Virus record (IMG/VR): IMGVR_UViG_3300020463_001735
Span: 16,187 to 80,186 of that record
Source: a virus
Direction: 5' to 3' (one strand)
DNA: 64,000 nt
In this document: positions 18,880-60,155 of the stretch, one piece after another
How the letters are laid out: each line of letters opens with the position of its first letter
How positions within the stretch are numbered: position 1 is the stretch's first letter
Position numbers and translations under genes: made by a program
The notes under the pieces: model-generated
The model's input: only the letters and a program-made list of their open reading frames with translations
Told to the model about the DNA's origin: nothing
The model's database searches: none

Positions 18880-18908
18880 AGTATACAGGAAGTAATGATA
18901 AAAGTCAA
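18880..18908 (-). promoter_or_regulatory. Sigma70-type (probably early) promoter for the minus accessory operon
   Basis: Read on the minus strand: TTGACT (18908-18903), a 17-bp spacer, and TATACT (18885-18880), then AGGAGG and the ATG at 18860. It shares the extended TTGACTTT start and 17-bp spacing with three other promoters in the window. Confidence 0.8.
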
Positions 18909-18914
18909 GAATTA

Positions 18915-19751
18915 TTAAAGTGTAGATTGATTGGTATATGTTGGTGCTGATAAAGAAACGTTTGAACCAGATGCTCTTAAATGTTGTACATTACTTGTGG
19001 TTGTGCCTGTAACGTTTTCATCTGGATTACCACCTTTGTCGTCTTGTAAATATATTCTAAACAATATAGCACCAGTTTGACTTAGAGCTGAAATAATATA
19101 ATCATTTGCCGCATATACACCTGAGCCAGATTTTTGAAATATCTGTTGATAGCTACCAGTTAAATCTTGTTGACCTATACTTGTTCCTGAGCCAGATCCT
19201 GTAGATGTTGTATTGGTGTAGTTCATTTTTATAGTACCCATGTTTGCTAACATATTACGCCAATCAACATTAATTGAACTAGATCCGCCGGATTGACTAG
19301 CAGTAAACCTAATTTCTCCACCTGCTTTAAAAAATTGTGTTTTAGCAATATCAGAACCAAAACTTACTAATACCCTGTGTTCTAATGTTCCATTCCAAGG
19401 CGAAGTTCTTGAACTACTTGTTCCAGATTCAATTGAAAATTGTCCTGATCCAATTGAATATAAATTTGATTCAACAGTGGTCATTACTGTTGCATATTGA
19501 TTTAAATGAGCGGCTAGTATTGTATCGCCCACATCTACGTTAGTAATAGTAGGACCAGTGCCTTGTTGATGGGTATATGCTTTTGTAATATCTGTGCGTA
19601 AATTATCTAACTGATCGTCTGTAATTGTTTGGCCTACTGATACTTGTCCACTTAATAACGATTGTCCGTAGTCTGTACCCATTATGGTGTTAATTCGACT
19701 TTGAACTGTGTTATAATCGCCTGCTGTAATTGTTGCATTTTGGACTGGCAT
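18915..19751 (-). CDS. Virion structural protein (tail-associated), unknown role
   Basis: The 278-residue protein has an N-terminal third with GDYNTVQSRINTIMGTDYGQSL and a following DDQLDNLRTDITKAYTHQ. This arrangement is recognisable from structural proteins of marine T4-like phages. The rest is Ser/Thr/Gly-rich and beta-structured, as expected for a virion surface protein. It follows the fibre genes on the same strand but has its own sigma70-type promoter and a late motif. It has no glycine-histidine catalytic signature. It is probably a fibre or tail decoration; the exact position is unknown. Confidence 0.6.
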   Translation of the reverse strand: MPVQNATITAGDYNTVQSRINTIMGTDYGQSLLSGQVSVGQTITDDQLDNLRTDITKAYTHQQGTGPTITNVDVGDTILAAHLNQYATVMTTVESNLYSIGSGQFSIESGTSSSRTSPWNGTLEHRVLVSFGSDIAKTQFFKAGGEIRFTASQSGGSSSINVDWRNMLANMGTIKMNYTNTTSTGSGSGTSIGQQDLTGSYQQIFQKSGSGVYAANDYIISALSQTGAILFRIYLQDDKGGNPDENVTGTTTSNVQHLRASGSNVSLSAPTYTNQSTL

Positions 19752-25936: not shown

Positions 25937-25944
25937 TATTTATC
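25937..25944 (-). promoter_or_regulatory. T4-type late promoter motif GATAAATA
   Basis: GATAAATA on the minus strand lies about 17 bp before the ATG at 25920 and overlaps the stop of the giant gene. It would start a transcript for the connector and fibre genes. Confidence 0.6.
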
Positions 25945-28900
25945 GCGGCAAGTCAGTTGTTGAATTCCTTAAGAAACGAGCTATATTTCCTTTTGCTTTA
26001 CTTAGCTGTGTTCCTAAATCGCTCCAAGTTCTTCCTTGCTTTCTAATTATAATTACTTTGCTATTTTCTGGTGCAGATTGTGCAAGAGAAAGTGTTGTAC
26101 CTGATACAGTAAACTCTGGTGGAAGTGTTTGATCACCTTCTGGTGAATCCATTTGTGGAGCACTTACTGTGTTTCCACTTCCGTCAACTGTTTCAAATGT
26201 ATAACTATCAATACTATTCTTTCTCATACGCTTGCCTGCAACAAAAACTTCAAATTCGTTTACACTTGTAGGTGTCCAATCTAGTTGAAAATCTGTAGTA
26301 GTTCCGTCACCGTCTAGTGTAAGAGTAATAGTTTCATCTTTGTAAGGAATATTTTGATCTATACCTTGTTGATATATTTCTGTGCCTTCTTTATATACAT
26401 CCTTTGCACCTGTACCCATTGTAGCTCTTCTAAGTTGCTTGAGTGTATTTCCGTCTCTTACAAAATATTCAATACGTTCACCTTCAATAAAAATAATACT
26501 TGGCATATCAGGATTATCATTAGGTTGAGGTAGTTTATCGCCGTTTTCAACTTCTATAGTCTTATCCCATGGATATAAATCTCTTACAAGTAAAATATTT
26601 TCTGCTCCTGTGAGCCTTTTGTAGTGTGTCCTGTTAAGTATATCTTTAAACTGTCTCCAACCAAACTTTTGTATCAACGGTGGGTCAGCAAAATGTATAA
26701 TATCTATAGTGTCATTTTCTAATAAGTCATATGCAATTTTTATATATTTCTTATTATCTGTTACAAAGTAATCAACACTAGGTGTTAGCAGTATTCCATT
26801 TTTTACTACCCAAACATACTGAGCATCAGTAGCCGGTTTGCGTAATTCAATTAAGCCATTTCTTAAATGCCTTAGGTTATACCAACTAGCAGAGCCTTGT
26901 GTTAATTTAGTTCTTTCTACAATGTCAAATTCTTGTCTTTCTATTCCCTGTGCTTCATCGTTATTAAATGTATACACAGTAATAATATCACTTGACTCAT
27001 ATACATTATCCATGTATATCGTTCCAGGAGTGCTTATAAATTCACCTGCACTATCCCAATATCCATATGCATATTGTCCATCTTTAATTGCATATACTCT
27101 TAGCGTATCACCAGTTTCGCCTACACCAGGCAACAATGTTATTGTTGAACCTATTTGTTGATCGGGTACTGAAGAAATGTCAAATTCTCCGGCACTAACA
27201 TAATTCCATTGTACTCCATACGTAAGTTCAATATCATTCAAATATACTAACAAATCCTGATGATTGAATGTACCTAAAGGCACTTGCCATAAATCTAATC
27301 GATATTCTCTTACATCGGAAACAGCAAAATGTTGACTATATCCTGCTGTTAAGATAGTGTTATTAACTTTGACAATAGTATTATGTTGACTAGGTGTGCC
27401 ACTAAATGGAGTCTTTTCTAAAGTATATGTAAGCGAACTGCCATCTCCTATAAATGTATCAATCTGTACTGCACTATAGTTTTGTGTAGTGCCTTCGAAT
27501 ATTCCAAAATTAATTATTTTATCATTAGCAACAGGTGTTGCAAAACGTATTACAACATTTCCAGGCATATCGTGGGCACTGTCATCACTTTTAATAAGTA
27601 AAGTATCTTGTGTAACACCGTCAATAGTAGCATAATGTGTCATATTCTCTGTCCAACGAATATTTGTAAGATAATCTATTGTGCTACCATCGCCAACAAA
27701 AGTTCCATAATCTAAAACATTTTTTCCTGCTACATCTAAAGTTATGATATTTACTTTTGTATTTGCAGTAGGAGCAACATCTAAAATAATACTTTTTCTA
27801 TCTATAGAAAATATATAATCTTCCTTTGTTTTAATCTCGTTGCCTACCTTTAAAAATAGGTTATTATTAAAAGCAATATTTTGTCCAATTGCAAAAGTTT
27901 TTGTACTTCCGTCTCCAAGATAATTAAAACTTCTAATATTACTTGAACCACCTGTTGGTCTTTCGTATACTTGTATATCCACTGTATCTAAAACTTGTCC
28001 TGGAATAATTTCTTCCGGGCCTTTACTTGTGGTAGGAGTTACAAAGCCATCTCCATCTACAGTTATATCTTCTGCAGATAATCCACTAGCTGTTGTATAA
28101 GGAAAATCTCCGCCTTCTATTAATGTATCGTAACCATTAGGATCTGCTAAGAAACTTCCATCACTTGTTTTTTTACGTATTACAAGTGTATCTCCATCTG
28201 CTACTTTTATACCTAAGTTATCAAGATTAAGTATTTTTAAAGACCCGTCGCCGACAAGCGTTTCAATTATAGCGTTAGAATTTTCTATAAATGTACTACC
28301 ATCATAATTTGGATCGTCTATACGTACATTATTTTTGTAAACATTATATTCTACACCACTTTCTAAAGGTTTAGACAGTTCTATTAGTAGAGTGCTACCA
28401 TCAAAGTTAAATACTTCGTCTTCATAGGTATCATCATATGTATCCCATTTTCCGGTAAACCAACCTTCAGCATCAAATCCACCCTGATTTTCAAATCCAA
28501 AACTTTTTACTTCTACTCCACCATAATCTATACCATCCATTACTTGTGAAATATCTTTTCCTAACATACCAGTGGTAGGATCATAAAGTAAATTAACCCT
28601 GTCTTGTGCCACTAGTAAATCAGGATCTTTTTTGTATTCTATAGTAATAGCTTTTGTATCTGCAGGAGGAGTATCAAGTGTTATACGTCCTTTGAATCTT
28701 ACATAAGATTTTGTGTTATCTTGTAAATTAGTATAGGTATATTGACTATTTAAAAGCTCAGTACCACCAACTGTAATTTTTATGTTTGCAGGTTTTACAT
28801 CTATTGGCCACTTCAAATCAAATACATATTTGCTACCTGTACCAACAAAACTTTCGCTTTCATTTAACTTTGTAATTATGAAACTAGAGCTAATCCTATC

Positions 28901-31900
28901 AAATTTTACCCTTGTTAAAAAACTTCTAACAGTTTGATGACCAATTACTGCACTTATCTTTGCATCAGTTCCGTCTGGGTTGCTTCCATTTATATCTAAA
29001 GTAGGTGCACCAATGTAACCACTTCCTTCATTTACAACTTCGATTTTTACTATCTTTCCGTTAACACCTAAATAACTTTTAAATTTAGCACCTGTGCCAC
29101 CGCCTCCAACTGCTGTGATTACAGGTGGCTCAGTATATTTAGAACCGCCATCATAAATGTTTACGCTTTTAATTTCATAACTTGCGTTATCCAGCCAATG
29201 TCTATAAGGATATGTTGTAATATCTGATTCTGTACCAACTATCATATCCTGTAGTACTTGTGAAGGATGAGGTTGTATACCCCTACCTTCAACATATCTA
29301 GGTGCTAAATCAAAATCTGTAATCACTGTATTAGTAGGTTCTATCTTTTCATAACTAGAAAGATATTCACGTAATTTTGTTTTAAATGGTTTTACTTCTT
29401 CTAAATAATCCTCATAACTAGGTAAATTATCATTGTTAAATGTTATATCTTCTCTAAGTGTTCCAACATTATGTTGAGCTTTTACAAAACTAGTTTTAAA
29501 TGCCCAATCAATATAAGGTTGTTCACTAAATGCATATCTTATACTAGCAAAAAACAGTTGGTTATATTCTTCTTCAAGTTCTACAGTGAATATATCATCA
29601 CGTATTACTTCAAATATTCTACGTTGTTCTACTGTAGGTTGTGCATCATAAAACTGAACATCAAAACTTATACTATCAAACCCATTCAAATTAGCAGTAA
29701 CATCATATAAACCACGCTTAAATTGTATGGTTCCATTCTGTCTACCTATTGTTTTATAATTCACTGTGTAATCAGTTGTTATTTGTTCATCTATTTTTTG
29801 CAACAACAACCAACCACCTGTGCCTATAGTGCTTATTTTAACAATGTCACCAACTGAATCATTAAGTGGTTCTAATTGATAAGAATAATCAATTAAATAA
29901 TCTATATCAATTGTTTCATTAACACCTGTAGCGTACCAATCTGCATACTCCCAATATAGCGTTGTATTGTATGCTTGGCTTTTGATTCTGTTCCAGCTGT
30001 TTGTTTCGCTTAGTCTTTCGTAAATGGACCATTTTCCGTTAATAGTTTCATCTGCTTTTACAAGTGCCGCAAACTTTCTTACTTCTATAGTAGTAGCATC
30101 TTCATAATTTTGTCCTTGATTATTCACAACCACAGTTGTAATTTGGCCTGCATTATCTATTGTAAATGTAAAATCTGCACCTTCTCCGCTATCTCCTCTA
30201 ATAGTGTAGGTAGGCGAAACTAGATACCCTCGTCCAGGATCAGTAATAGTTACTCTTACTATTTTTCCATCCTCTATCACAGGAGTTAGAATTGCTTGTT
30301 TACTTTTTGCTACACCAATAAGTTCAATTTCTGCAAAAGTGTCTACAGATGTATCATATAATCTAGAAATAGTGCTTGGAAAATCTTCTTTATAATCTAA
30401 GCCCGTTAAGTTTTTATTTTCTACAATTAAATTTTTTATAAGCACACTGTTAACACGTTCAATGGTTTGTTTCATTGCTTCTGTGCTGTTAACAAATATA
30501 CTCTGTCTAGGTGTATTTAATATTCCATATTTCTTTTTTGCACCTAATGTAGTATCTGGTACTGGTCTGTTGTTTGTATCGTATCCTATTAAACTATCAA
30601 ACCATTTTCTTTCAATATCTCTATTAGGTTTACTGCTTGCAAGACCATCTGTCAAAATTTGATATTGATTATGCACGTTTGTATCTTGATTATCTAATGT
30701 ATAGTACTGTACACTGATTGCAACATCTTTTCCTGAAATAAGTGTATCGCAATTATTAATTGCAAATTGATTGTTACTAAAGAAACTAACAAATTTATAT
30801 CCATATGAATAAGGATCTGTAATTAATTGTGCAGTGTTAAAAGCACTTTCATTTCTAAATTCATTATTAGGTATAGTTTTCTTATCTTTTACCCAATAAA
30901 AATACTTGTCTACAGAACTTTGGCTTATACTATCATATACTTTTTTAAGAACATAGTTTGTAGTGCTTTTTGCTTGGCCACTAATTCCCTGTGATAACCC
31001 ATCATTTGTATCAGCTTGTGCATTCCATAACTCAGGAGTAAGTGTAGACTCTATCCATTCATATACATCTATCGATGCACCACTAAAAAGTTTGTTCCAA
31101 TTATTTGTACTGTATGTAACGTCATTTTGATAAGGATTTAAAAATTTTGCATTGTTTAAATCCCACCATAATTGTCCTACTTGTTCTGTGCCCCATGTGT
31201 TTAAGTTATCTACTACCACATTTGTACCTGTTGTGTACGTAGCAGGGTCATAGTATGTTTTGTATCTTAGTTCTTGTTCTGCTACTCCTGCAATTTTTCC
31301 TTGCAAGACATCAATATAATCTAAGTATGCAAGTAGCTCTTTTGTTTTTGTATCATACAAAATAACTTTTTTAATTTTATTAAGATCTACAGGATCTTTG
31401 GGTGTTCTAATATTATCATATACTGATCCTTGTATACTATAATCAACAAATGCTCCTAATTTACTTGCAGTTTCTAATCTAGGTAATCCGACATACACAT
31501 GATTTCCTCTTGCCTCTACATTTCTACCAAAATAATCTACATTTGCATTGTTTAATTGTATAATATCAGCATACAATAATTTTCCATTAAGATTTTCATA
31601 AACATAAACTACACCATCATCTACATTTGTTTTTCTAAACTTAGTAAAGCTATTATCAAACGTAGTTGGCGATCCAGTTGGAGGACTTGTAGGATCGTTT
31701 GTGTATGCAGATCCTATTTTTTTAATACTAAATACGTCTATTGTAGATTCAAAAATACTGTCTGCATTTTTACTACCAACAGCAAGCACATTTCCTGTAT
31801 ATGACACTGTTGTTCCAAATTGTTCTGCCCTTTCATTTTTTGGGCTATATAAATTTTGATCTAATACAAATTTTCCGTTTTGTTGTCTGTAAATATATAC

Positions 31901-34900
31901 AATTCCTTGATCTGCATCTTTCTGATCATCGTAAGGTGCACTTATTGCAATACTCATTCCGTCATCTGATATTGAAATACTATCTGCAAAACCTATCGTT
32001 TTGCTAGGTGCTTCTATTATCTCATCGAATTCAAAGAAACCATTGTTTACCCTATATACAACAACACCGTTTGGCTTAGATTGATCATATGTAACACTAA
32101 CAATAAGAACATCACCATTTGCATTTACATCAATTGTATTACCAAAAACTCCTAAGGCTTCTTGATTGAGCACTGTACTACCATCTGTACTATCATTAAT
32201 AACTGAAAGCGTGGTGTCATTTGGTAAGTATCCAACGTAATCTACAAGATCATCAGTGCTTGTCCAATCACTACTGTTAAAAGCACCTGCGGCTAAATTA
32301 GTACGTGCGACCAATAAAGAACCGCCTAAATAAACAATATCATTTTCTTTATATGTGCTAGAAGCACTAAACTCACCTTTAAATTTTTTATTTTTTGCAG
32401 TATCCCAATCAAACGTAACATTATTTTCTATACCTTTTTTATACTGATATATTTTTCCGTTATTACCATCTTGTGATGCATATACAAACAATCTATATAA
32501 ATCATTGTTTTTAGCACCTTTTACTGTTGTTCCTAAATATTGATTGCTTGCTCTATATTCGTTAATATAATATCCTACAGGATCATAAGTACCTGAAGGT
32601 TTACGTTCAAAAATACTAAACATACCTTCGTACAAAAGATCACTTAGATTATTTTGTGCATCAGCATCTACAGGAATAGCAAATACTTCTTCCCAATCAT
32701 TACTATCTGGTCCAGGTAAATTAGGTTGTCTAGGAATACCACTAACTTGTGCTTCGTCATAAAACCAATATTCTGACTCTAGTAAAATACTTTGTACTGT
32801 CAAAGGAATATTAGCACTATTTTGAAATACTAAAAACTTTCCTATACCAAACGGAGCATACGAAAATCCTACTGCATCAATTTGCCCAAATACACGATCT
32901 CCTTGATATATTGGATCGGCTCTACTAAGATCACCAATAAATTCTATTTCAACATTATCACCGTAATCGTTACCTAAACTAAATGTTCCATTTGTGTTTT
33001 TTACAAAGATAACACCATTTGATCCGTCTCGTATGTAAAATACAACGTCTGCTTCTGCTCCTGTACCTAGATCTCTTACACGTAAAGCATCGCCACCACC
33101 TAAAACTTTTGGTTCAAAAACATTACCGGTGGCCGGATCGGTCTTTGTAAAATTAAATTTTATATATCCATCCCAAACATCATACACTGTTTGTTCTTTA
33201 TTTGTTATTGTTGTAGTTAATCCAATATCATTTATATTTTTATATGTGTTATCACTCCATCTAGGCAGCTGATCTATAAAAAGATTAATTTTACTACCAG
33301 CACTAATATTATCGGTTAAAGTTTTAGGAGATTTCATTACGTATAAGTCACTTAACAAAGGATTGGTTGTTCCACCTGCTCCTGGTGCACCTTGATTAGT
33401 AAGTGTTCTAATATAGCTTCCTATTGTATTTTCACTGTTTATTGTGCTATCATCGTCTACATCTAATATATTAAAATATCTTCTATTTTGATTTGTTTGA
33501 CCGCTTGGAGTAAAATCTTCGTATATCAAACCTTTACCGCTATCTCCTAAAGAGCTTTCGGTAGGGCCAGTGTTATAACTTTGTCCAGCGTTTATTACCC
33601 AGTAACCTCCCCATTGTGCAGTGTAATCTGCGGCATCACTCTGTAATTTTTTCTCATATTCTCCTACAAAGTCACCGTTATTTAAAAATAGACTACCTGT
33701 GGCTGGAAAAGTTCCATTAACATCTTTCATATATATAGCTACTCTAGCTAGTTCATTGTATTTGTAAGCCACTGTACCGATAGCACCAGTGGTTTCTAAA
33801 ATATCTCCTACTATAGGCACATTAGTTGCGGCATCAACATATAATACTGCATCTACTTTATAAATAATCGGATGTTCTCCTGTTATAAAGTCTGTGCCAA
33901 CTATGGGATTATATATACTATTAAAAGGTGCAATATCTTGTATAGAACTTTTATTTTGATAAGCATTAGATCTTTGATTCCATTTTAAACTAATTGTATC
34001 ACCAATTTTTGAACCCTCGTATTGATTAAACGGAGCTCTTACTATTACATGATCTGTAGCTGTATTTGTAAAAGGATAATTACCAGTTGCTAGAACAACA
34101 GGCGCATCATCTGTTTCAGCTGTAAGTCCTAGAGCTAGTCTTATCTGTGTCACACTTGCAAAACTTTGAAAATCAATAGACGCTTCTGCGCCTTGTATGC
34201 CAACACCTGCTTTCCATATACTATTAGCATATTTTACAATGTCATTTTTAAGATAATTAGTTGTTGTAATAAATTCATCTTGATATCTAGTTTTTACTTT
34301 TGATGCATGAGGAGATCCTACGTAAATATATTTTCCATCTTCACTTACATCTACACTTGCACCAAATCTTTCTTTGTCCATAGCCGCGCCAGCTAAAGGT
34401 ACTAATTCTGCAATCAAAATAAAATTATTGCCTTGGCTGGATCTATTGTACACATTTACTTTTCCATTATCATAATCAGGTAACCCTACAGCAAGAACTG
34501 TATTCCGTTTGTTTACTGCAATACTACTTGCAAAATTATGTAATGCACTATCGTCACCGCTTTGATTTTCTACAGTCTGTTGTAAACTATAGTCTCTAGA
34601 ATTTTTTACAACAGCCCACTTATCATCTGCAGCTTTGTCTATCCAAAGAATATCTCCATCTTGTAAATTAGCTTGTGCAATCTTGTTTGCATCATCAACG
34701 TTAGAAGCCCTCACTTTTACAAAATTTGTTATATAACCAACACAACTTGCTATGTCCTCTATTTCTTCATCTGTATCATTTATCAGTGTAATTTTATCAC
34801 CTGTTACAGATTTTACTTTATAAAATCCATCTATACCAGTAACATCAAATACTCCTATAATATCGTCAACAGCTACACTACGGAATGTTTCTTTTAGATT

Positions 34901-37900
34901 CAAAGTAAAGTCATCTGTACCACCTGTAACGCTAGTAATAGCATTTGTTGTATTTGAATATTTGTATACACTCCAGGATAAGTTATCCGTTCCTACCCAT
35001 ACATAATCTCCTTGCCGCAAATTTTCAAATGTTAAATTTACAATATCATCATATGTTGAAGATATAACTTTTACATCATCTAAATCTACATAGCCTGCAT
35101 TTCTTACATATGTATCTTCTATGTATTTTGTTGGAAAAGGAGCATGTGTGTAATTATCAGTCTTTTGATATACTTCAAAAGGACGTATTTTATACACAAG
35201 GTCTGTAGAAGCACTATCAATAGTTTCAACAAGTTCTATTGGTTGAGGAGCAAGTCTAAATGAACTTTCATCTAGAATATAATCAACTTCCTGGAATGAC
35301 TCTACAGCGCCGTACTGGCCGTCCTTGATTGCCCATTCTTCATAAAATTGCAAACTATCTTTATCAGCACTTGCAAGGGCATCAAACATTTTAGTGAGAG
35401 AATTTTTCGTTCCTTTATCTTGTAACATGCCTTGATAAAATTTATATTGACTTACGTCATCATTTATAATATTTTCTAAATACTTACGCTTTTGATATCC
35501 TATCAGATGTTGAGCAAGTCTTTGTTGCTCTACATCAAAATTATCGCTATCTAAATCATAAAAATCTGTAAACTGGATTGCTTTATAATCCCAATTAGAA
35601 TATAATCCACCTACAGGTTTGTCAGTGAGCCTATTCCATTGCTTATCAATAAATGTTTCTGTGCCGGGTATCTTTTGATCGGCTGCATAATAAAATTCTT
35701 TATACTTTACAATGGCTCCTATATCATAATCTACCCAAGATTCCCATTGAACAATTTTTGCTCCGTCGTAAAAGAAACCAGGAATACTAATGCTGCCGTT
35801 CCATTCATCTGTTCTATAACCAGCAACCTTTATACGTTCTTGTCTGTATCCAGGTTCTTGATCATAAATTACATCACCAAACACTGTGCGGTTATCTAAT
35901 AACACAACATGTTCCTTTTGAACTAGAGGTAATGTTACAGCGTATATTCCGTCTGCTGTATTCCTTGTTTGTATGTAGAATTCATTTGGATTTTCTCTGC
36001 CCACTGCTAAATATTCAGAATTTAATTTTTTACCATCAGCTTTTACCAAACTGTATCCGTAAATTGTTTCATACACATTTGCAACTACACTATATTCACT
36101 TATAAATTTTAAGTATTGAGCTGCAGGTGATAATGTAATTAAAGTACCATTATCCCATCTTTGTGTAGACCAAAACATAAATTGTTTTGCACTATATTTC
36201 CAGTCTTGTACAACTGCCTCATTGCCTTCATAATTATCAAATACAAAACCTTGTTCTTCTAACCAGGATCCGTAACCTATCATAAAATCAACAACTTCTT
36301 GTAATGTGTCAAACGTAGTCCCGTATTCGACTTCTTTTATAATATCTCTGTTATAAAGTTTAGCAAAACTAGCTCTTACACCGCCGGTCATAGGTAATTC
36401 TGCTAACTTTACAGTTTTATCTCCATCTAGTGTAACTCCACTAGTATGGGACTCTGTAACTCTATAATATGCACTTTGAAATTCAACAATATATCCTTTT
36501 TCATAATACTTGTCAGAGGCCCATTTTAGAAAGTCTTCACTTATTCCTCCAATAGTTATTACAGGATCTTTTTGTTGTTTTATGACAGGATGGGTTTTAA
36601 AGGTTGCACTTGTATTGCTATATCCCTTTACTGTAAATCCTCCTATTACTTTTTCTACAATGACTCCAGAATATGCAACAGTTTTTACAGGTGTACTTGT
36701 ATTTAAAAATATTTCATAATTTTCATTTGGTATGAAAACATTACCTTCATTCGTTGGACTTCTACTATCAAGTATTAATTTAAATTTTGCCTTTTCTGTA
36801 AAAGCACCTATTTTTAATCCAATGTTGTTTTGTATAGATGATATGTTATTTTTATAATCTTCAAAACTTGTAGTCACATCAAGAAACATATAATCTGCAA
36901 CATAGTTTACAAATCCACTTGTGTATGTTTGTGCAATATCGGAAGTAGATGCAGGATAAACAATTTTATCTAGTTCTATCTGTTTACCAGTATCTTTGTA
37001 TACTAATACACCTGCTACATTCCTTATCTGTCTTTGTCTATCAAAAGCAGTAGCAAACATTTTTGATGGACAATTTAAAATGCAACTACTAATCAAACTA
37101 AATGGATACTCGCTTGACCTGCGCCAAGCACTTTCTACAGGTGCTCCGTCACCAAATTTAAAATTATCTTCTATACCTGTGCTTGTAAATCCTTGTGCAT
37201 ACCCACTAGCAAGTGGACTCAATAGTTCTCCGTTAGGACCAGATGGTATGTGATTAGTTAAACCTGGACGTTTGTATTCATCTACAAATTTAGCAACCTT
37301 GTTCGGTTCGGCTATTTTTCCTTTTTCTATATCTTGCCACATCACTAAGTTATCACCAGTGTAAGGTGCTGGACCATAATTAGTTTCCCACCATGTAGGT
37401 TTAACACTGAAGCCTAACATTTCCCAAGGATGTGTGTGAGGACGATCTGTGTCATATGCAACCATATATACTTGTCTCCAATAGCCTGGAAGAACTTTGC
37501 CAGAGGGACTCTGCATTGATTCGTAATTAAAAGTAAAAGTATCTGATCTAACAAAATTATTTTTTGTATATTCAGTATCAGCTATTTTAGTCCATTCTAT
37601 AAAATCACTTAGCATTGCTTTATCTAAATTTACTTTAGGAGTATCAACAACTCTACGGTCACCTTCGATATAGTCTGTCAAATCAAAAACAGTTGTATCG
37701 TAAGACATTTTTAAATTATTATAAATTCTATTTTCTAATTCTAGTAATAAATTATCTCTGTAATCGCCATATGCTTTTATAATACTACCATCATGTCCTT
37801 GGATTACATCTACTGTAGTTCTATATGTTGTATCTGTAAACTTAATTGGTTCATAACTTGGATATAATCCTAACTTAGTAGGAGTTGCTGGCACATAACT

Positions 37901-40807
37901 ACCATTTGTGTTTTCATATTCATATATGGAGACAATATCGTTTTCTGCCTTTGTGGCTGTAATAACAACAAATCCTTCTGTGTTAAATGTATAATCTTTT
38001 CCGTGAGTCAATTGTACTCCATTAAGATATACTGTAACTGCTTTTTTATCTAATATAGTTTTATCAAATACTTGACTTAAAGCAAAAAAAGTGTTATTAG
38101 GATCTTCTATCTCATATCTTAATTCTTTTGCTGCTCCTAATGGAACCATATCGCTAAAGAAAAACGGATTTGTTTCAGTTTTACTTTTATTCATTTCAGT
38201 AAAAATTAAATCAACATGTGTTTTTACGTCGCCTTCAAAACCTAATGTCTCCGCAACTTGCATAAATCTGCGTTTAAATTTACCATATTCTTTTCTTGCA
38301 AATTTAACACTGTTAATAACATTGCTTTCGTTGTTGGTCAAATGATAAAGAGAATGATTTATTAAACCACTGTGTTTAACAAATCTGTTTCCATATATTG
38401 TAACCTGACCTAAATCACGTAAATTACTTTTTCCAGGAAACGCACCGTCAAAATTATCTATCTCTTCAACTATAGTGCTAACATGGTCATTTACCTCACC
38501 GAGTGTAAATTCTGTTATATTCTTGTTTTTTGGATTTCTTTCTAAGTTTATAGGAAATTCATATGTGCCGTTATCATTTTTTTCTGTTGCTGATTTTGTT
38601 TTAATTAAAATCACATCATTTACTATTAGATCTTTTGTAAAAACAATTTGTTTTACATTGTTAACATCTTGTGTAGTAGTGTAATCCACACCTTGTTTTT
38701 GAATGTCATTATTTTTATAGACACGCAACCATAAGTCTGTTAATTTTGAACTTTCATTGTATTGATCAATATTAAATTCTGTTTGTGAGCCGTCATAAAC
38801 ATACTGTCTTTCTACTTTTTGTGTGCTTAGTGTTGCGGCTTTTTTATATCCTGTTTCAAATGTAAAACTATCTATTGTTGAATATTTTTTTAAAAATGCA
38901 ACATCAGAATTTATATCAACTAGACTGTTTTCAGTCTGGTATGTAAAAGTTTGTCCTAGTAGGTCAAAGTCAAAAAGTATATCACCACTATTAGTAATAT
39001 TTCTATATGACAATGCAAATCCTAGTTCAGTGTCATTTGCTCCTAATCCTTGTTTGTATGAAAATAATTTATTGCCTGTAAAGTTGCTTGAAGAGTATAC
39101 TGTTTTATCTCCATAACTTTTTCCATCTTTGTCAGATAGATCAAATAAAGGACTTACGTTTACATTTGTTTTATCTTGTCCGTTTTTCCATTGAGTACCA
39201 TTATAGAAAAACATTTTACCTTTATATACATCGCCTTGTCTAACTAGCACAGTTTCGTTTTCTATCGCATCTGTATCTGTTTCATCCACTAATGCAATTT
39301 GTGTTACACCTTGAAACGAAATAAATTTTACTTTAAAAATTTTACCATAAACACGTTCGTCTGTATCTCCTAAGAAAAGTATTCTCATACCTTCCGAAAG
39401 ATCTATGTTATCAATATTATATCCTGTTGAACCTTCAATTGTTGATCTAACATCAGAAGTAAAAATATCTACTAGGTCTACGTCTGTTTTATTTTTTGTA
39501 CCAAAATCAAAAAGTTTTATACCTGCCTCAAATTCTATAATAGGTCTACTTGCTCTATTTGTTTGATCTACTTCTATAGGTTGATTGTTTATAGATGCAC
39601 TTTTTTCAATCACATCTCGATGAAACCAACGATTATATCTACTCCATAAGTTTCCGTCTATTGCACTTCTGTTAATTAAAATGTAATCTCTTGTAAGTGG
39701 ATATCCTATGCTCTGTCCAAAAGGTAATCTATCAAATGCTCCATCATCAAAAGGATTTGTTATATTTGTTGTAAATGTTGTAGGTACATCCAATGCATCT
39801 TCTTTAATTAATTTAATTGCATTTCCTACACCTTCTACATAATATTCTCCTTCGGCGTATGTACTAGGTGTTACGTTACCAATAAAATAAATCTTCATTC
39901 CGTTTGTAAGTTCAAAACCATTTCCTGTTTTATATGTTTTTTTACCTACAACTTCAGCATCTACATCTATTTTTGTTGCTTCTTCTATGTTATAAACTTC
40001 TATCACTCCACTACTTCCAGGATCATTATCGCTAAGATAATAAATTACGTCTGGGGTACTTTGATCAAGTTTAAATTCTATCACACCTTTATCTGTTGCG
40101 TCGGATGAGTCTTGTATAATATTAAATGTTGGATCCTCTACACGCTTACTCCTAAATACTAAAGGTAATCCAGGAGCATCAACTTCAAATCTATATGTTA
40201 TGCCTCTATACAATTTTAATGTTGGATTTGGTGTTTTTCCATCAGGTGAAAATACATATGATCGATTGTCAAGATTTTCTTGAGCTGTAACAGTGTAAGT
40301 ACTAACTACATCTATAGTTTGTCCAGCAACCGGTACACTTTGCGGCCCGGTAGGCAACCAGTAGTATTCTCTAAAGTTTACAAATTTATCCCAATCAATA
40401 TGCGGATCCCAAGCATAATATTCTTGTGCATTTAGTTTGGCATGATTTTTATTGGCACCGTTAAAGTTTCCTATTTGATTTACATAATCATTATAATCTT
40501 TATAGTAGGTTGTGTTTCCTAAAGTATCTTTAATTAAACTAGCAGGTTCAAATTGATAGTCTTCACGCTGTTTTGATACATCGCCAACATAATTATCATC
40601 AGCTGTATATGCATTTGTAATTTTTCTTCCGTAGTAACCATTTACCTTTTCAGCTACGCCGGGGCGAATCATTTGATCAAATGTTGCACTTAAAAATTTT
40701 CTATTATATCTTGATCTAAAATATTTAGGTAAATGATTAATACTAGAACGTTTAATAGGCTTGTCTGCAGGAAGTGCAGGATCGTTTTGATTATCGTCGT
40801 AAGCCAT
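25940..40807 (-). CDS. Giant virion structural protein (gp7-position baseplate protein)
   Basis: A single uninterrupted frame of 4955 residues directly follows gp6, where T4 has gene 7 (1032 aa). The N-terminus (KYFRSRYNRKFL, YYAWDPHIDWDKFVNFREYYWLPTGP) is of the type seen in giant proteins of marine T4-like phages. FG-GAP/beta-propeller-like repeats occur near 2090-2170 and 2890-3100 (VLAVGLPDYDNGKV, VYVGSPH, MSIAISAPYDD, HVYVGLPRL). Gly-rich GSGY/GSKYTEPP-type modules lie near 3550-3620 and 3880-3950. The C-terminus ends RKQGRTWSDLGTQL. It probably forms a wedge-associated or peripheral baseplate structure that links fibres. It may fuse functions of gp7, gp8 and gp10; this is inferred from position and size only. 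Confidence 0.75.
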   Translation of the reverse strand: MAYDDNQNDPALPADKPIKRSSINHLPKYFRSRYNRKFLSATFDQMIRPGVAEKVNGYYGRKITNAYTADDNYVGDVSKQREDYQFEPASLIKDTLGNTTYYKDYNDYVNQIGNFNGANKNHAKLNAQEYYAWDPHIDWDKFVNFREYYWLPTGPQSVPVAGQTIDVVSTYTVTAQENLDNRSYVFSPDGKTPNPTLKLYRGITYRFEVDAPGLPLVFRSKRVEDPTFNIIQDSSDATDKGVIEFKLDQSTPDVIYYLSDNDPGSSGVIEVYNIEEATKIDVDAEVVGKKTYKTGNGFELTNGMKIYFIGNVTPSTYAEGEYYVEGVGNAIKLIKEDALDVPTTFTTNITNPFDDGAFDRLPFGQSIGYPLTRDYILINRSAIDGNLWSRYNRWFHRDVIEKSASINNQPIEVDQTNRASRPIIEFEAGIKLFDFGTKNKTDVDLVDIFTSDVRSTIEGSTGYNIDNIDLSEGMRILFLGDTDERVYGKIFKVKFISFQGVTQIALVDETDTDAIENETVLVRQGDVYKGKMFFYNGTQWKNGQDKTNVNVSPLFDLSDKDGKSYGDKTVYSSSNFTGNKLFSYKQGLGANDTELGFALSYRNITNSGDILFDFDLLGQTFTYQTENSLVDINSDVAFLKKYSTIDSFTFETGYKKAATLSTQKVERQYVYDGSQTEFNIDQYNESSKLTDLWLRVYKNNDIQKQGVDYTTTQDVNNVKQIVFTKDLIVNDVILIKTKSATEKNDNGTYEFPINLERNPKNKNITEFTLGEVNDHVSTIVEEIDNFDGAFPGKSNLRDLGQVTIYGNRFVKHSGLINHSLYHLTNNESNVINSVKFARKEYGKFKRRFMQVAETLGFEGDVKTHVDLIFTEMNKSKTETNPFFFSDMVPLGAAKELRYEIEDPNNTFFALSQVFDKTILDKKAVTVYLNGVQLTHGKDYTFNTEGFVVITATKAENDIVSIYEYENTNGSYVPATPTKLGLYPSYEPIKFTDTTYRTTVDVIQGHDGSIIKAYGDYRDNLLLELENRIYNNLKMSYDTTVFDLTDYIEGDRRVVDTPKVNLDKAMLSDFIEWTKIADTEYTKNNFVRSDTFTFNYESMQSPSGKVLPGYWRQVYMVAYDTDRPHTHPWEMLGFSVKPTWWETNYGPAPYTGDNLVMWQDIEKGKIAEPNKVAKFVDEYKRPGLTNHIPSGPNGELLSPLASGYAQGFTSTGIEDNFKFGDGAPVESAWRRSSEYPFSLISSCILNCPSKMFATAFDRQRQIRNVAGVLVYKDTGKQIELDKIVYPASTSDIAQTYTSGFVNYVADYMFLDVTTSFEDYKNNISSIQNNIGLKIGAFTEKAKFKLILDSRSPTNEGNVFIPNENYEIFLNTSTPVKTVAYSGVIVEKVIGGFTVKGYSNTSATFKTHPVIKQQKDPVITIGGISEDFLKWASDKYYEKGYIVEFQSAYYRVTESHTSGVTLDGDKTVKLAELPMTGGVRASFAKLYNRDIIKEVEYGTTFDTLQEVVDFMIGYGSWLEEQGFVFDNYEGNEAVVQDWKYSAKQFMFWSTQRWDNGTLITLSPAAQYLKFISEYSVVANVYETIYGYSLVKADGKKLNSEYLAVGRENPNEFYIQTRNTADGIYAVTLPLVQKEHVVLLDNRTVFGDVIYDQEPGYRQERIKVAGYRTDEWNGSISIPGFFYDGAKIVQWESWVDYDIGAIVKYKEFYYAADQKIPGTETFIDKQWNRLTDKPVGGLYSNWDYKAIQFTDFYDLDSDNFDVEQQRLAQHLIGYQKRKYLENIINDDVSQYKFYQGMLQDKGTKNSLTKMFDALASADKDSLQFYEEWAIKDGQYGAVESFQEVDYILDESSFRLAPQPIELVETIDSASTDLVYKIRPFEVYQKTDNYTHAPFPTKYIEDTYVRNAGYVDLDDVKVISSTYDDIVNLTFENLRQGDYVWVGTDNLSWSVYKYSNTTNAITSVTGGTDDFTLNLKETFRSVAVDDIIGVFDVTGIDGFYKVKSVTGDKITLINDTDEEIEDIASCVGYITNFVKVRASNVDDANKIAQANLQDGDILWIDKAADDKWAVVKNSRDYSLQQTVENQSGDDSALHNFASSIAVNKRNTVLAVGLPDYDNGKVNVYNRSSQGNNFILIAELVPLAGAAMDKERFGASVDVSEDGKYIYVGSPHASKVKTRYQDEFITTTNYLKNDIVKYANSIWKAGVGIQGAEASIDFQSFASVTQIRLALGLTAETDDAPVVLATGNYPFTNTATDHVIVRAPFNQYEGSKIGDTISLKWNQRSNAYQNKSSIQDIAPFNSIYNPIVGTDFITGEHPIIYKVDAVLYVDAATNVPIVGDILETTGAIGTVAYKYNELARVAIYMKDVNGTFPATGSLFLNNGDFVGEYEKKLQSDAADYTAQWGGYWVINAGQSYNTGPTESSLGDSGKGLIYEDFTPSGQTNQNRRYFNILDVDDDSTINSENTIGSYIRTLTNQGAPGAGGTTNPLLSDLYVMKSPKTLTDNISAGSKINLFIDQLPRWSDNTYKNINDIGLTTTITNKEQTVYDVWDGYIKFNFTKTDPATGNVFEPKVLGGGDALRVRDLGTGAEADVVFYIRDGSNGVIFVKNTNGTFSLGNDYGDNVEIEFIGDLSRADPIYQGDRVFGQIDAVGFSYAPFGIGKFLVFQNSANIPLTVQSILLESEYWFYDEAQVSGIPRQPNLPGPDSNDWEEVFAIPVDADAQNNLSDLLYEGMFSIFERKPSGTYDPVGYYINEYRASNQYLGTTVKGAKNNDLYRLFVYASQDGNNGKIYQYKKGIENNVTFDWDTAKNKKFKGEFSASSTYKENDIVYLGGSLLVARTNLAAGAFNSSDWTSTDDLVDYVGYLPNDTTLSVINDSTDGSTVLNQEALGVFGNTIDVNANGDVLIVSVTYDQSKPNGVVVYRVNNGFFEFDEIIEAPSKTIGFADSISISDDGMSIAISAPYDDQKDADQGIVYIYRQQNGKFVLDQNLYSPKNERAEQFGTTVSYTGNVLAVGSKNADSIFESTIDVFSIKKIGSAYTNDPTSPPTGSPTTFDNSFTKFRKTNVDDGVVYVYENLNGKLLYADIIQLNNANVDYFGRNVEARGNHVYVGLPRLETASKLGAFVDYSIQGSVYDNIRTPKDPVDLNKIKKVILYDTKTKELLAYLDYIDVLQGKIAGVAEQELRYKTYYDPATYTTGTNVVVDNLNTWGTEQVGQLWWDLNNAKFLNPYQNDVTYSTNNWNKLFSGASIDVYEWIESTLTPELWNAQADTNDGLSQGISGQAKSTTNYVLKKVYDSISQSSVDKYFYWVKDKKTIPNNEFRNESAFNTAQLITDPYSYGYKFVSFFSNNQFAINNCDTLISGKDVAISVQYYTLDNQDTNVHNQYQILTDGLASSKPNRDIERKWFDSLIGYDTNNRPVPDTTLGAKKKYGILNTPRQSIFVNSTEAMKQTIERVNSVLIKNLIVENKNLTGLDYKEDFPSTISRLYDTSVDTFAEIELIGVAKSKQAILTPVIEDGKIVRVTITDPGRGYLVSPTYTIRGDSGEGADFTFTIDNAGQITTVVVNNQGQNYEDATTIEVRKFAALVKADETINGKWSIYERLSETNSWNRIKSQAYNTTLYWEYADWYATGVNETIDIDYLIDYSYQLEPLNDSVGDIVKISTIGTGGWLLLQKIDEQITTDYTVNYKTIGRQNGTIQFKRGLYDVTANLNGFDSISFDVQFYDAQPTVEQRRIFEVIRDDIFTVELEEEYNQLFFASIRYAFSEQPYIDWAFKTSFVKAQHNVGTLREDITFNNDNLPSYEDYLEEVKPFKTKLREYLSSYEKIEPTNTVITDFDLAPRYVEGRGIQPHPSQVLQDMIVGTESDITTYPYRHWLDNASYEIKSVNIYDGGSKYTEPPVITAVGGGGTGAKFKSYLGVNGKIVKIEVVNEGSGYIGAPTLDINGSNPDGTDAKISAVIGHQTVRSFLTRVKFDRISSSFIITKLNESESFVGTGSKYVFDLKWPIDVKPANIKITVGGTELLNSQYTYTNLQDNTKSYVRFKGRITLDTPPADTKAITIEYKKDPDLLVAQDRVNLLYDPTTGMLGKDISQVMDGIDYGGVEVKSFGFENQGGFDAEGWFTGKWDTYDDTYEDEVFNFDGSTLLIELSKPLESGVEYNVYKNNVRIDDPNYDGSTFIENSNAIIETLVGDGSLKILNLDNLGIKVADGDTLVIRKKTSDGSFLADPNGYDTLIEGGDFPYTTASGLSAEDITVDGDGFVTPTTSKGPEEIIPGQVLDTVDIQVYERPTGGSSNIRSFNYLGDGSTKTFAIGQNIAFNNNLFLKVGNEIKTKEDYIFSIDRKSIILDVAPTANTKVNIITLDVAGKNVLDYGTFVGDGSTIDYLTNIRWTENMTHYATIDGVTQDTLLIKSDDSAHDMPGNVVIRFATPVANDKIINFGIFEGTTQNYSAVQIDTFIGDGSSLTYTLEKTPFSGTPSQHNTIVKVNNTILTAGYSQHFAVSDVREYRLDLWQVPLGTFNHQDLLVYLNDIELTYGVQWNYVSAGEFDISSVPDQQIGSTITLLPGVGETGDTLRVYAIKDGQYAYGYWDSAGEFISTPGTIYMDNVYESSDIITVYTFNNDEAQGIERQEFDIVERTKLTQGSASWYNLRHLRNGLIELRKPATDAQYVWVVKNGILLTPSVDYFVTDNKKYIKIAYDLLENDTIDIIHFADPPLIQKFGWRQFKDILNRTHYKRLTGAENILLVRDLYPWDKTIEVENGDKLPQPNDNPDMPSIIFIEGERIEYFVRDGNTLKQLRRATMGTGAKDVYKEGTEIYQQGIDQNIPYKDETITLTLDGDGTTTDFQLDWTPTSVNEFEVFVAGKRMRKNSIDSYTFETVDGSGNTVSAPQMDSPEGDQTLPPEFTVSGTTLSLAQSAPENSKVIIIRKQGRTWSDLGTQLSKAKGNIARFLRNSTTDLPR

Positions 40808-56086: not shown

Positions 56087-57085
56087 ATGTTTGTGAGTGA
56101 AATACTAAGTGAAACCGAGTATAAGGTAACAGTGTCTGGTACTGGTCAAAGTAAAAGTTTTAATGTTATAAATGTAGATACTGGTGAAACTGTAGGTAGA
56201 CATAGAAACAGTGCTATGGCAAATAAACAGAAGCAATCACTTGTCAAAAAACTACCTACTCCTGCAGATAAACTTAAAAAAATAGCAAATACAAAAGGGC
56301 AAACTGTTGATAGAGCTAAAGGCGTCAGAGCAGCAGACCAATATCTAGACAAGAAAGATAAAGCTAAAGATATAGCTAAAAAGGGCAAAAATCCAAAAGA
56401 GCTAGGAAAAGGATTTTTAAAAAAATTAGGATTAGGTCCGCAGAAATGGTTTGGACCATTTCTACAATTCTACATATCGATTGATCAAATAGGAACTTTA
56501 ATTTATAATTTTAATGACATTTATATAAAATCAGGATGTAATGCTAGAGATCCATCAGTAAATGCTTATCACAGGGCTATAGGCCAGGAAGTGACAGGTA
56601 TTTTTATTGCTACTGCCGCATCTGCGTTAGCTGGCGGCGCCGCATCACGAGGACTTAAGAAGATAAAGGATCTTAAGACTACGCTCCAACTAATAGGAAA
56701 CATCACTGTTGCTGCACCTGTTGTTGGATGGATAGCTAGGGTAATTTCTTTTATAGGAATCGAAGCCGCTTTCTATGCACTAGGAAAAGCATTAGGTAGC
56801 AGTAAACTTGCAGAAGGAATGGCTGATTGGTTTATGACAACAGCTTTTACAAAAGCACAATTAGTAGACTATGTAGCAACTTTTGATCCTGAAACATATA
56901 AAGTTTGTCAAAGAAGAGATGAAAATTTTGTTGATTCAACAGATGAAGATGAATACTTTGTAGAACAAACAGTAAGCAAAACTGCTGTCAAAAATGATGT
57001 TATGAAGATTATCAAGGATGATCCTAAATTAATGTCAATGGTGAAAAAAATAAAATCTCAAAAAACTAAAGCAAAGGCAACTTAG
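56087..57085 (+). CDS. Unknown protein with basic N-terminus and two hydrophobic segments
   Basis: The 332-residue protein has three parts. A lysine-rich N-terminal third (about 40-115) could bind nucleic acid. Two hydrophobic, Ala/Gly-rich segments lie at about 168-185 and 201-236 (GIFIATAASALAGGAA; VAAPVVGWIARVISFIG). An acidic then basic C-terminus ends KKIKSQKTKAKAT. Late-type control and the position between hub genes suggest a virion protein, perhaps injected with DNA or linked to the tail. No family was recognised. AAGGAA lies before the ATG. Its end overlaps the convergent gp51-like frame by 20 bp. Confidence 0.6.
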   Translation: MFVSEILSETEYKVTVSGTGQSKSFNVINVDTGETVGRHRNSAMANKQKQSLVKKLPTPADKLKKIANTKGQTVDRAKGVRAADQYLDKKDKAKDIAKKGKNPKELGKGFLKKLGLGPQKWFGPFLQFYISIDQIGTLIYNFNDIYIKSGCNARDPSVNAYHRAIGQEVTGIFIATAASALAGGAASRGLKKIKDLKTTLQLIGNITVAAPVVGWIARVISFIGIEAAFYALGKALGSSKLAEGMADWFMTTAFTKAQLVDYVATFDPETYKVCQRRDENFVDSTDEDEYFVEQTVSKTAVKNDVMKIIKDDPKLMSMVKKIKSQKTKAKAT

Positions 57086-57299
57086 TTTCTTTTACAACTT
57101 CAATATTATCTTTAGCAATACGATTAAGAATGTCTCTATCTTCTTTAGTAATTCTAAACATTAAATCTTCGTAAGTAAAACTGCCACGCATATACCAACC
57201 TAGTCGATATACATCATCTTTGATTTGTTTGATTTCGTTTTCGTAATGTCTAGCTAATTCTAAGAGATCAGATTCCTCGAGCGTAACGATCGAACTCCG
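57066..57299 (-). CDS. 51: gp51-like hub-chaperone segment without a start codon, reached by -1 frameshift from gp26
   Basis: A 77-codon open frame overlaps the end of gp26 in the -1 frame and runs to a TAG at 57066-57068. It reads TLEESDLLELARHYENEI, then YRLGWYMRGSFTYEDL, KEDRDILNRIAKDN and ETKLPLL. This is the pattern of short gp51/tail-chaperone tails with a WYxRG motif in T4-like phages. No ATG, GTG or TTG occurs in the frame between its upstream stop (near 57329) and the conserved start of the domain. With the slip site at 57299-57308, gp26 residues 1-273 plus these 77 would give a 350-residue fusion. This parallels the G/GT tail-assembly chaperones. Confidence 0.75.
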   Translation of the reverse strand, partial: RSSIVTLEESDLLELARHYENEIKQIKDDVYRLGWYMRGSFTYEDLMFRITKEDRDILNRIAKDNIEVVKETKLPLL

Positions 57300-58117
57300 A
57301 AAAAATTTGAGTAATCCATGTCGAGTTGTGTTTTGTAAGTTTCTTTACAATCTTCGTTAGTGCATGTCACTTCAAATTTAGGCAATTTCCATGATTCTGT
57401 CATGCTCATGATTGTTTCTTTTATTTTGTTGTAAAACTCTACATCATTTTCACTTACCCATGCTTTTATTACTTCTGGATCAGCTTCTTTGTCTTCACCG
57501 TCTACAATTTCACTTATATGCGACAGTGCTACTTGTATGTTTAAATTAGCTGATGCATGAAGCAAATCATTTAGTTGCTTATCCCGTTCGGTATTTTCCA
57601 AAGGTAATTGATCTACAGATGCAATTTGTTTTTGTAATGTGTAGCTTTGTATAGAAAAATCTGTTGTTTGTTTATATGTGATAGGTTTCAGAAAAAACTC
57701 TAAATCTCTTATTACAAATGATTGCTTGATTTCGTATTCGTTAACTAATTTTAATAAATTTTGCAGATTAATCTCAGCTTCGTTTTCTGTGCCACACTTA
57801 GGACATTTTGTACTAATTGGAATAGTTTCTCCATATGTTGCTATTCTAATGGATAATAGTACATAATCAATATCATATCCTACCAATTGCCAAGGATCTA
57901 ATATATCAGGTATACAACTGTTAATAACTTGTGCTGTAGCTTCGCCTGAAAATAACGCATCAGGAGTTCGTAGTAACATTTCGTCCATTGCCGTCATACC
58001 GAACACAGGTAATGATTCAACTTTTTCACATACTGACGAATCGTAAAATTTTCCTTCTGTAGGTAAATCAATAAACAATCTAGGTTGTCTTTTGTGCTTG
58101 TCGAGAAAACTACTCAC
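57260..58117 (-). CDS. 26: Baseplate hub assembly protein gp26 (T4 baseplate-chaperone family)
   Basis: The 285-residue protein starts at GTG with CGGAG before it. It has LPTEGKFYD and LPVFGMTAMDEMLLRTPDALFSGEA, which are conserved in this family, a zinc-ribbon-like pair CPKCG (about 105) and CTNEDC (about 260), and a C-terminal YSNFFG. T4 gp26 is 208 aa. It helps assemble the baseplate hub and, by analogy with other tail chaperones, probably handles the tape-measure protein. Its end carries the slip site leading into the gp51-like frame. It diverges from the tape-measure candidate across a palindromic promoter region. Confidence 0.85.
   Translation of the reverse strand: MSSFLDKHKRQPRLFIDLPTEGKFYDSSVCEKVESLPVFGMTAMDEMLLRTPDALFSGEATAQVINSCIPDILDPWQLVGYDIDYVLLSIRIATYGETIPISTKCPKCGTENEAEINLQNLLKLVNEYEIKQSFVIRDLEFFLKPITYKQTTDFSIQSYTLQKQIASVDQLPLENTERDKQLNDLLHASANLNIQVALSHISEIVDGEDKEADPEVIKAWVSENDVEFYNKIKETIMSMTESWKLPKFEVTCTNEDCKETYKTQLDMDYSNFFGVRSLRSRNLIS
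57299..57308 (-). promoter_or_regulatory. Programmed -1 ribosomal frameshift site (two overlapping slippery heptamers)
   Basis: On the minus strand, in the gp26 frame, the bases read A AAT TTT TTC. That contains the canonical heptamers A-AAT-TTT (57308-57302) and T-TTT-TTC (57305-57299), each in the correct X-XXY-YYZ phase. A small stem-loop (TTCGA/TCGAG, 57294-57276) starts five bases downstream and could stimulate slipping. Slipping joins gp26 to the start-less gp51-like frame. Confidence 0.75.
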
Positions 58118-58128
58118 TTTATAACTCC

Positions 58129-58154
58129 GATAAATACTTTATAAAGTATTTACT
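58129..58154. promoter_or_regulatory. Bidirectional late promoter on a 22-bp perfect palindrome
   Basis: The stretch 58131-58152 is a perfect inverted repeat centred on TTTATAAA. Rightward it supplies GATAAATA (58129-58136), about 46 bp before GTG 58182. Leftward it supplies AGTAAATA (58154-58147), about 30 bp before the gp26 start. Late transcription of both genes can begin here. Confidence 0.6.
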
Positions 58155-58181: not shown

Positions 58182-60155
58182 GTGGCTGAAGTAAGCGGTG
58201 CACAAATTGATGCACTTACAAGTGCATTAGAAAAACTTGAAGGTAAACTTGCATCAGGGGGACCTGCCCCTGGACAAGGAAGCACCAGCAATCCTATCAA
58301 AAACTCTAGTATCGGAAAAGATTTGTCAAATTTAGCAGGTGGCGTAGCTACAGGAACTGCTAAAATACGTGATTTTGGTAAAGCTATACCTCTTGGTTTG
58401 TTAGGTAGCTTTGGCGAAAACCTTTCAAATGCAGGACTTGCTGTAATAGACTATGTAGTAGGCACTAAAGCAGAATTTGAAGGTTTAAGCAAAGTTGGTG
58501 CTGGTTTAACTGGCGATTTGGGCTTGTTACAAGTAACGGCGGCAGAAACTCGCATGTCTTTACCCGAATTTTCAAAAATGATTAAAAGTAACAGCACTTT
58601 GCTGGCACAATTTGGTGGCGGTATGACAGACAGCGTTCAAAAATTTGCTAAATTAAGTGATGCAATGTTTAAGGGCGAAGATGCACCTATCAACACTTTT
58701 ATGCGTTTAGGCATGTCTATTGAAGAATCTAATGAATTTATGTTACAGTCACTGGCTGTAAATCAACGTTCTCAAAGATTTAGACAGATGGATGAAGCAA
58801 GTCAGTTAAGGACTGCTCAAGATTATGCAAAAAATTTAGACCTCATATCAAAACTGACAGGAAAAAGTGCTAAAGAACTTCAAAAAGAAGCTGATGCTAG
58901 AATGAATGAAGGCGACATAAACGCTACAATGCGTTTAGCCGAAAGACAAGGTGCTGAAGGTGTAACTGAAGCATTCCAAGCTGTTCAAGGAAATTTGAGT
59001 CAATTACCGCAAGCGGCGCAAGCAATGTTAAAACAAACATTGAATTTAGGCGGTCCTATAGATGCACAAACATCTATGTTTGCATCATTAAATCCAAAAA
59101 CGGCTCAGCTTGCTAGAGAATTTGATAAGATTGTTAAAGATACATCCATAAGTGGAGATGAACGTAAAAAGTTATTGGAAGCTAAAGCTAAAGAAATGAC
59201 TGCCGCGGCAGCACAAGAAAGTCAGTCTACACAAAACTTACAGATTGCAAGAACAGCGGCTGTAACCGAAGCTGGAGCGATAGCGGCTGGATCGTTACAA
59301 GAAATGGACAAATTAATTAATGCAATAGGACAACATGCAGATACTATTGGTAAAAATTTAGGCGAAACCGGCGCACATTTTTCAACGTTTAACAGTTTAA
59401 TGAACAAACTACAAACAGAACAAAACCAGCAATTATCTGATTCAGGATCTGCAACAGCGGCAATGAGAGCAGTAACAGAGACACAGCAGGCTATTGCTAA
59501 TACAAGTAGTGCAGTTAGAGTAACTATGGGTAAACAGTTAAAAGATAATACTACAATTACCGATGCTTTATCAACTGTAGCGAAATCGTTAGACGATGCA
59601 CAATTAGCAACAAAGCTAGATAATCTTTCAAATGCATTAGGGAACATTAATACAAGCCTTAATCAGAAAGCGGAAGCAAAAGGTTTGGGGCTACCTGAGG
59701 ATGCTGGTAAAGACGAAATAGCCAAAAAAATAAAAGAACTTGCTGATAAAGCTCCAGAAGGTGTTGTGGATCCAGGCGATACCTGGTATCAAAAGCTGGG
59801 CAAAAATATACTAGGATTTTTTAGTGATGACAAGCCAGCGGAAAGAGCAACAGGTGGTGGTATGACCTCTGGAGCATTGTACAATTACAATGAAGCTCAA
59901 CAACCACTCAGCGGAGAAATAATTAAAGCCACAGGTAGTGAAACAATGCTTAGTGCAGAACAGTCAAATAATTTGATTACACAAGCAGTTAGTCAAAGTA
60001 GCCAAGATTTTGGAAAACTAAACGAAACTATGTCTGCCGTAAGTGACAAGCTAGATGTAATGATAGCGATAAATACTACACAAAATAAAAATCAAAAGCA
60101 AACGATTGATGCAATCCATGCTAAAGGAAACATGCTAAGAGGTATAGGCGCATGA
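58182..60155 (+). CDS. Tape-measure protein candidate (gp29 position)
   Basis: The 657-residue protein starts at GTG with TAGGAG before it. It is Ala/Gly/Gln/Ser-rich and almost fully helical, with a central hydrophobic region (AIPLGLLGSFGENLSNAGLAVIDYVVG) and long amphipathic helices (SLPEFSKMIKSN, SQFRQMDEASQLRTAQDYAKNLD-type), typical of tail tape-measure proteins. T4 gp29 is 590 aa. It lies divergent to the gp26/gp51 chaperone, the partner expected for a tape measure, and just before the portal gene. No direct gp29 motif was recognised, so the call rests on composition and neighbours. Confidence 0.6.
   Translation: MAEVSGAQIDALTSALEKLEGKLASGGPAPGQGSTSNPIKNSSIGKDLSNLAGGVATGTAKIRDFGKAIPLGLLGSFGENLSNAGLAVIDYVVGTKAEFEGLSKVGAGLTGDLGLLQVTAAETRMSLPEFSKMIKSNSTLLAQFGGGMTDSVQKFAKLSDAMFKGEDAPINTFMRLGMSIEESNEFMLQSLAVNQRSQRFRQMDEASQLRTAQDYAKNLDLISKLTGKSAKELQKEADARMNEGDINATMRLAERQGAEGVTEAFQAVQGNLSQLPQAAQAMLKQTLNLGGPIDAQTSMFASLNPKTAQLAREFDKIVKDTSISGDERKKLLEAKAKEMTAAAAQESQSTQNLQIARTAAVTEAGAIAAGSLQEMDKLINAIGQHADTIGKNLGETGAHFSTFNSLMNKLQTEQNQQLSDSGSATAAMRAVTETQQAIANTSSAVRVTMGKQLKDNTTITDALSTVAKSLDDAQLATKLDNLSNALGNINTSLNQKAEAKGLGLPEDAGKDEIAKKIKELADKAPEGVVDPGDTWYQKLGKNILGFFSDDKPAERATGGGMTSGALYNYNEAQQPLSGEIIKATGSETMLSAEQSNNLITQAVSQSSQDFGKLNETMSAVSDKLDVMIAINTTQNKNQKQTIDAIHAKGNMLRGIGA

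Follow-up and report, generated by a model that had tools for sequence, protein, structure and literature searches.

The region that we analysed, a window of 64,000 nucleotides of DNA from a marine T4-like phage, contains a gp26-type gene from which a pair of tail assembly chaperones (TACs) is probably made by -1 ribosomal frameshifting at U UUU UUC, a reading to which we give, on comparison of sequences, a probability of roughly 0.93. The slip site is conserved among relatives, the frame that it leads into is coding and has no start of its own, and there is homology to T4 gp26 (the short form) and T4 gp51 (the long form). The features concerned are collected in Table 1.

Table 1. Features of the chaperone locus and its surroundings, in window coordinates.
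Feature	Position	Strand	Remarks
gp26-type gene, TAC-N (short tail assembly chaperone)	57260..58117	-	285 aa, GTG start, TAG stop
-1 frame, C-terminal domain of TAC-NC	57066..57299	-	77 codons (RSSIVTLEESD...KLPLL) and stop
Predicted TAC-NC (gp26-gp51 fusion)	57066..58117	-	350 aa = 273 + 77, from slip position
Slippery heptamer T TTT TTC	57299..57305	-	codons AAT TTT TTC, N271 F272 F273, in phase
Second heptamer A AAT TTT	57302..57308	-	in phase in 49/115 distinct loci only
Palindrome, 22 bp, perfect, TAAATACTTTATAAAGTATTTA	58131..58152	.	between TAC-N and tape-measure candidate
Divergent 657-aa tape-measure candidate	58182..60155	+	from position and length; phrog_14121 weak

The product of the gp26-type gene, TAC-N, matches PF12322 in Pfam (E 5.8e-18, 65.8 bits against a cut-off of 24.5) and phrog_150 in PHROGs, labelled 'baseplate hub' (E 1.1e-17), and an SD-like GGAG lies 5' of its start. 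The heptamer T TTT TTC stands 12 codons ahead of the gp26 stop; the -1 frame can be read without interruption from 57344 as far as a stop at 57066, and its earliest ATG falls inside a conserved GWYMRG motif, with none before. A preliminary description of this DNA had placed a 77-codon -1 frame without a usable start behind gp26, and these reading frames are confirmed; the lengths that it predicted for the two products likewise agree with the position of the slip. An AF2 model of TAC-N (pLDDT 89.2) is confident to residue 273 and drops below 50 in residues 274-285, the zero-frame tail past the slip, the predicted fold in the model stopping at the slip site. The -1 domain is modelled as an all-helical unit of 79 residues (pLDDT 89.4). 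When searched with Foldseek, the TAC-N model is matched in BFVD by hub proteins of T4-like phages (best E 1.3e-18) and has no match in PDB at E<=0.001, while a viral fold search with the C-terminal domain (TAC-C) gave no matches. Weaker BFVD matches (E 1e-7 to 1e-4) are to proteins of 450-690 aa from other large phages, for example Ralstonia RSF1 and RP12 and Erwinia phiEaH2, and they suggest that TAC relatives exist at a greater distance.

Sequence support for a conserved -1 frameshift is about the strongest that comparison alone can give. Protein and profile searches of IMG/VR, together with cultured phages, were blind both to the heptamer and to the frame relation, and they returned 178 loci carrying both parts, 115 of them distinct by sequence around the stop, with 28-88% identity to the window protein and many of them kin to one another, such that counts over them are not independent. 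Every one of the 115 distinct loci has its two parts in a -1 relation, and 114 carry T TTT TTC in phase, T TTT TTT taking its place in the other (XacN1), a regularity that is far beyond chance. The codon preceding the slip ends in T in every distinct locus (115/115), and the second Phe of the slip is TTC in 114/115; Phe elsewhere in the same genes is TTT in 1082 of 1301 cases (83%). Where the extension is 77 codons long (94 loci), entropy is zero at every one of the seven slip positions, wobble bases included. Substitutions between close pairs in that subset, counted by phase, number 105/29/15 upstream of the slip; downstream of the overlap they number 135/45/467, and the wobble position thus moves by one frame. 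Aligning relatives was the check proposed in the preliminary description, and it upheld both the retention of the heptamer (114/115) and a first ATG that usually lies inside the conserved domain. Two perfect heptamers had been claimed, however, and only T TTT TTC stands; A AAT TTT is probably a by-product, because it is in phase only if the preceding residue is Asn (AAT), and we rejected it as a second slip signal on the count given in Table 1.

In the mechanism that we propose, most ribosomes would read gp26 through to its stop and produce TAC-N. A minority would stall when tRNA-Phe occupies both the UUU and the UUC codon of the heptamer, slip one base back onto UUU UUU and resume at CGG, thereby making TAC-NC with its additional helical domain. 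We infer both that it is ribosomes that slip and the frequency with which they do so. By analogy with G/GT of lambda and E/E' of P2, the two products would function as chaperones, TAC-N coating the tape-measure protein, for which the 657-aa neighbour would be the client, and TAC-NC recruiting tail-tube subunits.

It is very unlikely that the -1 frame is instead gp51 as a gene in its own right, started independently and expressed through translational coupling, and that the T run is incidental. In cyanophage GenBank records a 'gp51' is indeed annotated apart, beginning at an internal ATG, and a TAATG overlap provides a start in the Ackermannvirus VP-1. In the main family, however, the first ATG is mostly inside the conserved domain and without an SD, lying most often at codon +36 (62/115), within WYMRG, and preceded by an SD-like sequence in 8/114; an own start codon for gp51 was rejected on these grounds. 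The slip heptamer is moreover invariant even at synonymous positions, conservation in the -1 frame starts at the slip, and the N-domain is also present in T4 gp51, all of which argue against a self-contained downstream gene. An in-frame near-start that follows the conserved GAGGAATCTGAT motif was inspected by eye and dropped as well, the codon being CTC in the window and not conserved.

Highly improbable too is that RNA polymerase, slipping on the T6 run, changes the frame by giving mixed transcripts. A homopolymer is present, with six T and in XacN1 seven, but T6 is short for bacterial transcriptional slippage, the retention of TTC as the second Phe (114/115 loci) caps the T run, and the covarying RNA hairpin at +6 in relatives fits ribosomal frameshifting. 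That an assembly or sequencing error has split one continuous gene, as the window's origin in a metagenomic virus record might invite one to suppose, is scarcely credible and is refuted by relatives, since the split recurs across the 115 distinct loci and cultured phages with finished genomes show it too.

The elements that commonly accompany ribosomal frameshifting are unevenly distributed. A stem-loop had been described five bases downstream of the slip in the window, and this claim failed, the RNA 3' of the slip folding no better than dinucleotide shuffles (z +1.2 and +1.35); in the window's clade, where the stop comes 10-14 codons past the slip, the mean z is -0.45, with no structure signal. 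Loci with a stop 1-4 codons past the slip have a mean z of -2.1, and their long stems most often begin exactly 6 nt downstream. Over 30 of these loci, from a sister group, the pairing of an 11-bp stem reaches 72.4%, against 21.8-42.2% when the stem is slid, and its hairpin has a covariation of 0.344, against at most 0.179 when slid, and 47 double-changed cells, against 21.5 in shuffles. From this pairing and covariation, and from the z of the window's clade, it follows that the stimulatory hairpin truly exists in relatives but not in the clade of the window. SD-like 4-mers upstream of the slip occur in 5/115 loci, and an upstream SD stimulator was rejected as rare. Neither a downstream structure nor an upstream SD stimulator is an obligatory feature of -1 programmed ribosomal frameshifting; we have counted the want of a recognisable structure in the window and its clade, and the rarity of the SD, against the frameshift reading.

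Both T4 gp26 (TAC-N) and T4 gp51 (TAC-NC) match the whole of PF12322 (E 8.8e-64 and 3.9e-52, respectively), a domain that T4 and the window have in common, gp26 ending with it and gp51 running on for about 48 residues. Residues 147-246 of T4 gp51 match phrog_634 ('hub assembly catalyst', E 1.2e-23), and so do the -1 frames of cyanophages and Vibrio phage PVA8 (E 3.4e-29 to 1.3e-21); the -1 domain of the window has no match to phrog_634 at E<=1. When compared by hhalign, the fusions predicted for the cyanophages and the Vibrio phage align with Straboviridae gp51 end to end (probability 98.9, E 1.2e-17) and with gp26 up to the slip only (99.1, E 7.1e-19), and therefore T4 gp26 corresponds to the short form and gp51 to the complete long form. 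The window family matches the cyanophage fusions across the N-domain and the first residues past the slip (probability 97.2, E 4.1e-11), a bridge that is needed because its direct profile match to T4 gp51 is weak (45%). The earlier proposal that gp26 and gp51 are a chaperone pair, for which the T4 genes are an alternative arrangement, is thus well supported in substance, but what was called the gp51 frame of the window is the C-terminal extension only and not the whole of gp51. The window is predicted to encode both the short and the long form from one gene with a -1 shift, whereas T4 has two separate paralogous genes.

The 3' end of T4 gp26 reads GAG TTC TTT GAG, without a slip site, and two paralogous genes without the heptamer are found in T4 and in Acinetobacter, Aeromonas, Slopekvirus, Pseudotevenvirus and Krischvirus genomes. 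When N-domains are placed in a tree, a branch (98/98) separates the two-gene proteins from every single-gene form, which is consistent with one duplication; the tree is unrooted and, for that reason, the polarity between frameshift and duplication is only inferred. Tentatively, and with a little less than even confidence, we propose that the frameshift in a single gene is ancestral to T4-like and related jumbo phages, that one duplication among the kin of T4 put a fixed short gene 26 and a fused long gene 51 in its place, and that the frameshifting lineages divide into those stimulated by a hairpin and those using a hairpin-free U UUU UUC. If this is true, the ratio of TAC-N to TAC-NC would be under selection, and a single protein family would have at least three different means of setting it.

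The layout of the window recurs in all seven of the cultured jumbo phages first checked (7/7) and in Salicola phage SCTP-2, and T TTT TTC with a -1 frame is found in three cyanophages and Vibrio phage PVA8. The gp26/gp51 loci of Kyanoviridae and Schizotequatrovirus resemble that of the window in their in-phase T TTT TTC and -1 frame, and a long hub or tail-type gene comes next. They differ from it in that their TAC-C is of the phrog_634 type, the TAC-C sequence of the window being different, and in that the gene of their likely client is downstream and shares their strand, whereas the window's candidate is divergent. Lambda (G/GT) and P2 (E/E') have, like the pair predicted here, a short product and a long product of -1 frameshifting; theirs are encoded beside the tape-measure gene, and their heptamers, GGGAAAG and TTTTTTG, differ from T TTT TTC. 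Searches of Pfam and PHROGs at E<=1 matched the window proteins to none of the lambda-type TAC families, and in PDB no fold homology of TAC-N to non-T4 TACs was found at E<=0.001. In Vandenendeviridae and Andersonviridae, TAC loci shift -1 at a poly-T motif at the end of TAC-N, frameshifts that were missed in annotation (PMC12846349); these are other phage families, and the motif is GTTTTT rather than T TTT TTC.

The idea of T4-like TACs is not new, since the genes were reportedly identified already by Vladimirov, Gautam and Davidson in 2022 (Virology 566:9-15). A summary of that work (PMC10885494) describes some T4-like phages as having, instead of a frameshift, a short gene and a longer fused one. 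TAC-N genes of T4-like phages are known to carry poly-T signals for a -1 shift (PMC12846349), T4 gp26 and gp51 are listed among the hub assembly chaperones (PMC3004832), and the record of Acinetobacter phage Octan names both genes 'tape measure protein assembly chaperone'. In the literature that we consulted we have not found stated the extension to jumbo-phage and marine lineages, the limitation of the covarying +6 hairpin to some clades, or the wrong starts in cyanophage gp51 annotations; some of this may be in the 2022 paper.

In two cyanophage loci the annotated 'gp51' begins at an internal ATG (3235-3372 in L024, 3193-3324 in L031), and for this reason the first part of the conserved -1 domain is missing from it. 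The small cyanophage 'hub assembly catalyst gp51' annotations would gain both a role and an origin as the missing C-terminus of the long chaperone, and the same identity would apply to the ORFs that follow gp26 in jumbo phages, where they are called hypothetical or are not annotated. In Ackermannviridae (L026, L028, L193 and L194, L028 being VP-1, where the TAATG start is available) a -1 frame follows gp26 and the heptamer is replaced by DTT TTY, with GTT or ATT and then TTC or TTT at the slip position; these loci are possibly intermediate between a frameshift and a separate gene.

Of 106 testable loci, 105 have a divergent neighbour of more than 150 aa, mostly 600-800, beside TAC-N, and 98 of these neighbours fall in one profile with the 657-aa protein of the window, which itself has a weak match to phrog_14121 (virion structural protein). 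From its position and length, this protein is plausibly the tape-measure protein. Both it and TAC-N begin with GTG behind GGAG-type ribosome sites, and the palindromic region between them is possibly a pair of overlapping divergent late promoters, set back to back. Elsewhere in the window, positions 1-19000 hold by eye a dense cluster with radical-SAM-like, PP-loop ATPase-like, glycosyltransferase-like, nitroreductase-like and SGNH-like genes and a strand switch near 12100, a gene load that is unusual for a tail-gene region. A single ORF of 4955 codons, very large for a phage, occupies 25940-40807, between tail-fibre-like and baseplate-type genes.
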